NCBI GenBank assembly: GCA_039028635.1
Contig: JBCCHV010000002.1
Span: forward strand, 1-64,000
Origin: Acidobacteriota bacterium
Lineage (GTDB): Bacteria > Acidobacteriota > Thermoanaerobaculia > Multivoradales > JBCCEF01
Reading direction: 5' to 3'
Length of the DNA: 64,000 nucleotides
Shown: piece by piece, positions 48,232 through 63,305 of the stretch
Layout: the number at the start of each line of letters is the position of its first letter
Position numbering within the stretch: the stretch's first letter is position 1
Notes under the pieces: generated by a model
Told to the model about the DNA's origin: nothing
Databases searched by the model: none
Seen by the model: only the letters and a program-made list of their open reading frames with translations
Position numbers and translations under genes: made by a program

Positions 48232-48235
<4 letters not shown>

Positions 48236-48837
48236 GCCATCCGAATCTCGAGCTGAGCTGGCACGGCAACTTCGGCGAGGCCCTCGCAGGGTCCGCCGAG
48301 GTCTGCCTGGTCTATTTCTGGGCCCCGGGTTGACTGGGCTGTGCGCGCATGGGTGCCGTGACGTACCCAGACGACCGAGTCGCCGCGCTCCTGACGGAGC
48401 GCTTCAACCTCTACAAGCTCGACCTCAGCACGCCCCATGAGGACTTCCGCGCCGCCAGCGGTGGCGCACCGGTGCCGTGGGCCCCGACCTTCCGCTTCTG
48501 CGACCGCCGAGGCCGGGAGGTTCGGCGGCTCGTCGGTTGGCTGCCGCCGGAAGGCTTCCTCGCCGAGCTCCACCTGACCCTCGGCCTGCAGGACATCGCC
48601 CGCGGTCGTTTCGCCGACGCCGAGGCCGCGATGGGACGCATCGCCGACCGGTGGCCGGAGGCCGCCGCGGCCCCGGAAGCTCTCTACTGGGCCGGCATGG
48701 CAGCCTTTCAGGACGGCCAGCGAGACATGCATCGCCTCCATCAGGGCTGGCAGGCGCTGCGCCAGCGCTACCCGGACAGCACCTGGGCCGAGCGCGCCTC
48801 GGTGATCGACGACTGGAAGGGCGCGCAGGCTCACTGA
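48232..48837 (+). CDS. Thioredoxin-like protein with in-frame UGA (putative selenoprotein, UxxC)
   Basis: Read from a GTG overlapping the icd stop (GTGA), the frame runs 33 codons to TGA at 48331-48333 and then, in the same frame, to 48837 (201 residues). Around the TGA it reads VYFWAPG-[UGA]-LGCARMG: a thioredoxin-type active site in which UGA takes the place of the first Cys of CxxC. The sequence after the UGA ([40 protein letters not shown] with the cis-Pro region) continues the same fold and ends in two TPR-like helices. A stem-loop follows the UGA. Seen directly: frame, overlap and motif. Insertion of selenocysteine is inferred; a sequencing error or a broken gene is the alternative. Confidence 0.8.
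48334..48370 (+). promoter_or_regulatory. Candidate SECIS stem-loop for the UGA at 48331
   Basis: Immediately 3' of the UGA, CTGGG (48334) pairs with CCCAG (48366), with an inner GCGC-ATGG-GTGC hairpin whose loop starts 15 bases from the UGA. Bacterial SECIS elements lie just downstream of UGA with a G in the apical loop at about this distance. The structure was drawn by eye, without energy calculation. Confidence 0.5.
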
Positions 48838-61848: not shown

Positions 61849-62424
61849 ATGCGAGATGCCCTCTTGATCGTCGCTTTGGTGGCGACGCTGGTGCCAAGCC
61901 CCTTCGCCTCGGCGGCGCAGGACCGCAGCTCCCGTCCCTGCCGCGACTGCACCGTTCTCGATGAGGCCCCGGAGAAGCTCGACTGGCGCCTCACCATTCC
62001 CAGCCAAGGCGAGCCGGGTTCACCCTTGGTGCTCACCGGCCGAGTCCTCGCCGCCGATGGCGAGACGCCGGCCGCCGGCGTGCTGCTCTACTTCCACCAC
62101 ACCAACGGCGAAGGGGTCTACCCACCTCCTCCGGGAAGCACCGGATGGCGCCGGCGCCACGGCACCCTCCGCGGCTGGCTACGGACCGACGCCGAGGGGC
62201 GCTACGAGCTCCGCACCCTGAGGCCGGGTCCCTACCCCGACGCCAGGATTCCGGCTCACATCCACCTGCACATCCGAGAAGCGGACGGTAGTTCCTACCG
62301 CGGCAGGGACTTCCACTTCACCGACGACCCGTTCCTGAGTGAGACGGCGAGACGACGCGCCGTCGAGCTCGTGCGAGCAGGAGACGGCTGGCGCGGAGAG
62401 AAGGACGTCATCTTGCGTCCCTGA
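61849..62424 (+). CDS. Exported intradiol-dioxygenase-like protein
   Basis: A 191-residue exported protein (signal peptide LIVALVATLVPSPFASAAQ) with the catechol/protocatechuate intradiol-dioxygenase core. Seen: VLTGRVLAADGETPAAGVLL, YFHHTNGEGVYPPP and GWLRTDAEGRYELRTLRPGP, then the iron-ligand Tyr and His set in YPDARIPAHIHLHIREA (Y, H-x-H). All four non-heme iron ligands appear present. Extracytoplasmic members of this family act on unknown aromatic or polysaccharide-linked substrates. AAAGGA precedes the ATG. Confidence 0.86.
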   Translation: MRDALLIVALVATLVPSPFASAAQDRSSRPCRDCTVLDEAPEKLDWRLTIPSQGEPGSPLVLTGRVLAADGETPAAGVLLYFHHTNGEGVYPPPPGSTGWRRRHGTLRGWLRTDAEGRYELRTLRPGPYPDARIPAHIHLHIREADGSSYRGRDFHFTDDPFLSETARRRAVELVRAGDGWRGEKDVILRP

Positions 62425-62474: not shown

Positions 62475-62807
62475 CTAGCCGCTGACCAGGTCCGCAGCCA
62501 GCTCCCGGTTGAAGCCCACCAACAGGGTATCGCCCGTCAGCACCATCGGGGCCCGGTAGTTGCCGGTCGGGCCTTTGAGGGCATCGAGATCGGTCTCGCC
62601 GGCCTCGAAGGTCACCACCTTCTTGCCCTTGGCGACGTGCACCGTGCTCACCTTGCCGAGCAAGACCTGGACCTCGTCATCGGAGAGGGGTTGTTTGCGC
62701 GCCGAGCGCTCCTCGACGATCTCGGCATCGTGGTTCGTCAGCACCTCACGGGTGCGCTCACAGCTCTTTCAAGAGGGGCGATGGTAATAGAGTTCGACCT
62801 GACTCAC
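62475..62807 (-). CDS. ArsC/glutaredoxin-like protein with in-frame UGA (putative selenoprotein, UxxC)
   Basis: From GTG at 62807, preceded by AAGGAG at ideal spacing, 12 codons read VSQVELYYHRPS, then TGA (62771-62769), then KSCERTREVLTNHDAEIVEE and on to 62475 (110 residues). Y-H-R-P-S-[UGA]-K-S-C is the ArsC/Spx/glutaredoxin active-site pattern (RPxCxxC) with UGA at the first cysteine. The C-terminal part has GNYRAPMVLTGDTLLVGF, with the cis-Pro and final strands expected of the fold. The frame alone, without the UGA, would lack its first strand and active site. Selenocysteine insertion is inferred; a sequence error or mutated Cys codon (TGC) is the alternative. Confidence 0.8.
62741..62755 (-). 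promoter_or_regulatory. Candidate SECIS stem-loop for the UGA at 62771
   Basis: On the minus strand GCAC-CCGTGAG-GTGC forms a short apical hairpin whose loop starts 17 bases after the UGA and contains GT. The lower stem is poor by eye (AGC and GCT can also pair), so it is weaker than the one at 48334. Confidence 0.4.
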
Positions 62808-62861: not shown

Positions 62862-63305
62862 CTAAGACCCAAGCTCTTCGAAGTCCTCACTGCGCGCGAT
62901 CGAACGGAGGGCCGCGAGCAGCGCCGGCGGCGGCCGACGAATCCGCCGAGTGGTGAGATCGAGCCATGCCCCTTCGACGGTCACCGTCGCCGCGAGCTCG
63001 CCATCGGCTCGCAGCACCCGGTGGGTCAAGCGGTACTTGCGGCCGTTGGCGGAGAGGCCGGCAACGCGAAAGTCGATGGTGATGGTCTCTCCCATCGCCA
63101 CCTCACGGCGGTATCGGGTCTCCTCGCGGAAGATCACCGGACCGACATTCGCGGCCTCGAAGCGCTCAGCCCCGAAGCCGCGCTCGGCGAGGCAGGAGAA
63201 GCGCACGTGGGTGGCGTAGTCGTTGAAAGCGGTGTGGCGAAGATGCCGATTGGGATCGAGATCCGCCCACCGGACAGGGAAGGCTTGCTCGTAGGTCTGA
63301 CTCAT
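62862..63305 (-). CDS. Hotdog-fold acyl-CoA thioesterase (4HBT family)
   Basis: A 147-residue single-domain thioesterase. Seen: QAFPVRWADLDPNRHLRHTA with the catalytic Asp in the D-x-N/D-x-x-x-H context, FNDYATHVRFSCLAERGFG, and the strands ETRYRREVAMGETITIDFRV and YRLTHRVLRADGELAATVTV followed by AWLDLTTRRIRRPP. It hydrolyses acyl-CoA or a related thioester in the cytoplasm; chain length is not predictable. The start at 63305 overlaps the upstream membrane-protein gene (ATGA). Confidence 0.88.
   Translation of the reverse strand: MSQTYEQAFPVRWADLDPNRHLRHTAFNDYATHVRFSCLAERGFGAERFEAANVGPVIFREETRYRREVAMGETITIDFRVAGLSANGRKYRLTHRVLRADGELAATVTVEGAWLDLTTRRIRRPPPALLAALRSIARSEDFEELGS

Follow-up and report, generated by a model that had tools for sequence, protein, structure and literature searches.

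The gene at positions 62475..62807 on the minus strand of the window, by which we mean the whole stretch of 64,000 nucleotides analysed, very probably encodes a selenoprotein of the family NF041106. This is a joint claim on the family and on the recoding of an in-frame UGA, the latter being read from sequence comparison. As a preliminary description made from the sequence alone had stated, a strong ribosome-binding site (AAGGAG, 62818-62813, minus strand, spacer of 5 nt) precedes a GTG start codon (62807-62805), and a TGA lies in frame at codon 13 (62771-62769) within HRPS-UGA-KSC. Reading through this codon gives a frame of 110 codons that ends with the stop codon TAG (62477-62475). The 110-residue product, VSQVELYYHRPSUKSCERTREVL...NYRAPMVLTGDTLLVGFNRELAADLVSG, carries the motif U13-K-S-C16. 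Taken alone, a UxxC motif spanning a TGA counts for little: when both strands of the 64-kb window were scanned laxly for UxxC or CxxU across TGA, 18 pattern hits at 17 distinct sites were returned, mostly in nonsense frames. The UGA described here stands out from chance because it is conserved at the same codon in the relatives of the gene.

With Cys put at the position of U, the protein matched NF041106, 'ArsC family (seleno)protein' (ArsC_rel_Se_1), with 90.5 bits against a cut-off of 85, and the match extended from residue 4 to 102 on positions 1-105 of the 107 model positions. In a DNA search in which UGA is read as stop the window gene reached 82.8 bits, below the same cut-off. The matches to the Pfam Glutaredoxin and ArsC models were under their cut-offs. 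The earlier view of the gene as an ArsC/Spx/glutaredoxin-like UxxC selenoprotein is supported; the gene had not been matched to a named family in that description, but it does have one, NCBIfam NF041106. In a 2026 review NF041106 is entered as 'Arsenate reductase-like protein' with a UxxC motif and as a high-confidence prediction (PMC13188914), and ArsC-like selenoproteins have been catalogued since 2005-2008 (PMC1088965, PMC1794560, PMC2398784). The family is therefore already catalogued and the window gene adds one member to it.

In our alignment of the family (A3) the residues Y8, R10, U13, C16, G61, G79, G82, R85, A86, P87, V97 and G98 are invariant. An AlphaFold2 model calculated with 48 sequences (pLDDT 94.4, pTM 0.86) showed a thioredoxin fold. 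Using Foldseek, Spx was the best match in the PDB (5.7e-5), followed by an archaeal glutaredoxin and YffB. Structural superposition with VIA-align gave a Z score of 10.3 for Spx (rmsd 2.1 over 88 residues), of 8-9.9 for ArsC relatives (1i9d, 8.1; Vibrio cholerae ArsC 3f0i, 9.0) and of 7.9 for NrdH. The model confidently predicts a single ArsC/Spx-type thioredoxin fold that is nearest to Spx and ArsC. The protein is probably cytosolic.

We infer that the protein probably acts as a Spx/glutaredoxin-like selenol-thiol oxidoreductase. Chemistry of the thiol-disulfide type is suggested by the UxxC motif together with the R85-A-P87 loop, whose proline presumably corresponds to the cis-Pro that is typical of thioredoxin folds. 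Sec13 would be the nucleophile, with a disulfide or some other oxidised substrate as its target, C16 would resolve the resulting selenenyl-sulfide, and the enzyme would be recycled by cellular thiols or thioredoxin. The host genome contains the bacillithiol enzyme gene bshC, which hints at bacillithiol as a plausible reductant; bshC also occurs in most genomes of the class with or without the selenogene and is hence not specific.

Two other functions were considered for the same fold. The protein could be a Spx-like transcription regulator that binds the alpha subunit of RNA polymerase and uses UxxC as a redox switch, as Spx is the nearest solved relative by sequence profile as well as by fold and the UxxC motif occupies the position of the Spx CxxC. 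This is improbable. The protein ends near the equivalent of Spx position 115 and thus is without the C-terminal tail of Spx, its scores are far under the cut-offs of the Spx models (25.8 bits versus 123 for NF002459 and 23 versus 75 for TIGR01617), and UxxC is equally a glutaredoxin trait.

A true arsenate reductase, in which Sec replaces the catalytic Cys, would agree with the ArsC-like family name, with the superpositions on 1i9d and 3f0i and with the observation that Pfam PF03960 finds no further ArsC/Spx-type protein in the host genome. Nevertheless, we regard this function as quite improbable. The E. coli ArsC sequence used for the alignment differs from PDB entry 1i9d by a few substitutions, none of them at R94 or R107. 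These are two of the three arginines with which ArsC binds arsenate at its oxyanion site. In all relatives aligned, the column of ArsC R94 holds Ala and that of R107 holds Phe, Tyr or Ser, which makes arsenate reduction less likely. Around ArsC Arg60 gaps shift the alignment, and a K/R-rich stretch, AKGKK, adjoins. Moreover, the protein has a second active-site cysteine, C16, as in Spx and unlike E. coli ArsC, and no ars operon was seen beside the gene; a pI258-type ArsC/hotdog fusion is encoded nearby only in a few relatives.

The selenogene is flanked by a gene for a YbgC/FadM-like hotdog thioesterase upstream (62862..63305, minus strand) and by a convergent gene for an intradiol-dioxygenase-like protein (61849..62424, plus strand). 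A comparison of the neighbourhoods of 36 loci revealed no conserved partner gene, and most of the neighbour clusters obtained were shadow ORFs of the selenogene itself or reflected local synteny within one family. At four related loci (L006, L060, L063 and L065) a YtxJ-type bacilliredoxin is encoded on one side of the selenogene and a pI258-type ArsC/hotdog thioesterase fusion on the other; the family matches were run on single copies, that of L006 for the fusion and that of L063 for the bacilliredoxin. The bacilliredoxin beside the gene in these four relatives hints at a link to bacillithiol.

Returning to the recoding of UGA in this putative oxidoreductase, we compared the codon 13 position among its relatives. 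A TGA at the same codon was found in all 65 distinct full-length sequences, the window sequence included, nearly all of which are from Acidobacteriota. The relatives share 33-72% identity with the window protein, and conservation spans both sides of U. Related loci came from MAGs of Acidobacteriota, from single MAGs of Desulfuromonadales and of a deltaproteobacterium, and from an unclassified bacterium, and TGA is present at the matching codon in all related loci that retain the 5' part of the gene (one relative, L014, is a fragment that covers residues 53-95 only). A search of 148 genomes of the class yielded 66 matches to NF041106, and all but one have exactly one internal TGA. The four weakest of these matches, the TGA-free one among them, represent a separate Spx/ArsC-like family with three UGA-containing members and one member with Cys. 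Likewise, 37 matches at E<=1e-10 were obtained with alignment A3 in 396 genomes of the phylum, each with one TGA (37/37). A Cys orthologue of the gene was not found in the sampled Acidobacteriota genomes. Homologues with Cys or Sec at codon 13 had been expected in the preliminary description; those found carry Sec (UGA) at this codon.

The single match without a stop, from genome G078, was rejected as a Cys orthologue. It is a distinct Spx/ArsC-like protein with the motif KPTCTTC, and its relatives in G010, G018 and G074 contain UGA. The four sequences (L056, L057, L058 and L055 from G010, G018, G074 and G078) make up the separate family, which is characterized by KPSUTSCRKAV and the ending RRPLLV. 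Three of these genomes have UGA and the fourth has Cys, so that this family provides a Sec/Cys pair, and it has retained the Arg directly before Pro.

Downstream of the UGA codon, a bSECIS hairpin, GCACC-CGUGA-GGUGC, is predicted at 62741..62755 on the minus strand from pairing in 34 sequences and from synonymous-site conservation. It consists of a 5-bp stem and the 5-nt loop CGUGA (62750-62746) with G at loop position 2; the loop starts 18 nt past the UGA, and the energy of this structure is about -7.65 to -7.7 kcal/mol. Loop, stem, distance and energy are all inside the bSECIS rules given in PMC13188914. Within the subfamily of the window gene the stem GCACC/GGUGC with the loop C-G-U/G-G-A/C is 100% paired in 34 distinct sequences. 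The only compensatory pair in this subfamily is a C-G to G-C swap in L066, and neither of the two codon changes involved alters the amino acid. The greatest excess of synonymous conservation is shown by five codons, 15, 18, 19, 21 and 22, every one of which falls within codons 14-25 (Mann-Whitney P=0.0015); codons 18-22 are inside the hairpin and codon 15 is located just before it. As a single sequence, the window hairpin region folds no better than shuffled sequences (z -0.05), and the hairpin has a pairing probability of ~0.2, a competing register being preferred. Rfam models gave zero matches to the window at gathering score. In a second subfamily (YYHRNGUTSC) a different stem-loop, GCGUCC-AAGUUGAU-GGACGC, is found at a nearly equal distance. 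Seven cells of its stem are changed on both sides, a value that 0 of 500 shuffles reached; sequences that are related may surpass shuffles on other grounds as well, and this result is thus supportive but no proof. In the second subfamily RNAalifold, used by itself, missed the hairpin. In the proposed mechanism, SelB and tRNA-Sec would act together with the hairpin just 3' of UGA codon 13 to insert selenocysteine.

The genome of the host (6.28 Mb, 95% complete) was searched for the corresponding machinery. The genes for SelA (535 bits) and SelB (367 bits) are adjacent on one contig (C21), and SelD (279 bits) is encoded on another (C42). A gene for tRNA-Sec with the anticodon UCA (73 bits) is situated at C2:83322-83417, on the contig of the window itself and approximately 20 kb past the end of the window, and lies apart from selAB. 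One further sequence exceeded the cut-off for tRNA-Sec, and it is a tRNA-Ser(TGA). The host had been proposed to use selenocysteine, and the presence of selA, selB, selD and tRNA-Sec bears this out. SelB is above the cut-off in 131 of the 148 class genomes, and its co-occurrence with the gene is therefore uninformative.

It is hardly credible that the UGA is a true stop codon or an error of sequencing and that the gene is a pseudogene or a short ORF beginning at GTG 62744, where an 89-aa ORF does open downstream of the UGA. A genuine stop and a sequencing error can be ruled out because the same UGA recurs throughout the relatives, in dozens of assemblies obtained independently, and the protein shows conservation across it, including sequence and start 5' of the UGA. 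The Sec machinery in the host genome and the synonymous-site constraint at the hairpin also argue against this reading, and the product from 62744 would have neither the first strand nor the active site. The earlier judgement that a random sequencing error was unlikely is upheld by these assemblies.

As also proposed previously, a second UGA-containing redox gene is present within 15 kb. This second selenogene (48232-48837, plus strand) has its UGA at codon 34 (48331) within APGULGC and encodes a thioredoxin-like UxxC domain and a C-terminal TPR-like part. The UGA is kept in nine relatives with 30-47% identity. In the closer relatives a hairpin GGGURC-CGUGAC-GUACCC is found, and the loop CGUGA is common to both selenogenes. 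No NCBIfam family scored above its cut-off, and the gene may thus represent an unnamed selenoprotein family.

These data confirm a lineage of Acidobacteriota that decodes Sec, and one window of its DNA contains at least two genes for selenoproteins. Both would be truncated or missed by an annotation that takes UGA solely as stop. What remains of interest is that Cys orthologues appear to be missing from the phylum. It is possible, although we put this forward tentatively, that Acidobacteriota harbour a Sec-only family, unlike most selenoproteins, together with a SECIS loop, CGUGA, that is common to two unrelated selenogenes of this genome. If the Sec-only reading is true, it would suggest that the protein catalyses a reaction to which Cys is poorly suited. 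The apparent lack of Cys orthologues in the sampled phylum makes the family reasonably well suited to asking why Sec has been retained.

Compared with known systems, the window protein resembles NF041106 in its score over the cut-off, the near full-length match and Sec at UxxC; its subfamily (HRPSUKSCERTREVL) scores near the cut-off, and many relatives fall below when UGA is read as stop. The ArsC-like or 'Arsenate reductase 2' selenoproteins described from deltaproteobacteria and from marine metagenomes (PMC1794560, PMC2398784) likewise combine Sec with the ArsC-like fold class. For 'Arsenate reductase 2', PMC2398784 gives a UxxC motif like that of the window protein, and the Desulfuromonadales relative found here is L012. 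The host phylum of these published proteins differs, and the likeness noted here is one of fold class and motif. With E. coli ArsC (1i9d) the window protein has the fold and the catalytic position 12/13 in common, whereas R94 and R107 are not conserved and UxxC replaces the single active-site Cys. With Bacillus subtilis Spx it shares the thioredoxin fold and an Arg at the RAP-Arg position, and the CxxC of Spx stands at the site of UxxC. It differs from Spx in that it lacks a C-terminal extension, carries Sec where Spx has its first Cys, and has Ala, and not Arg, immediately before Pro.
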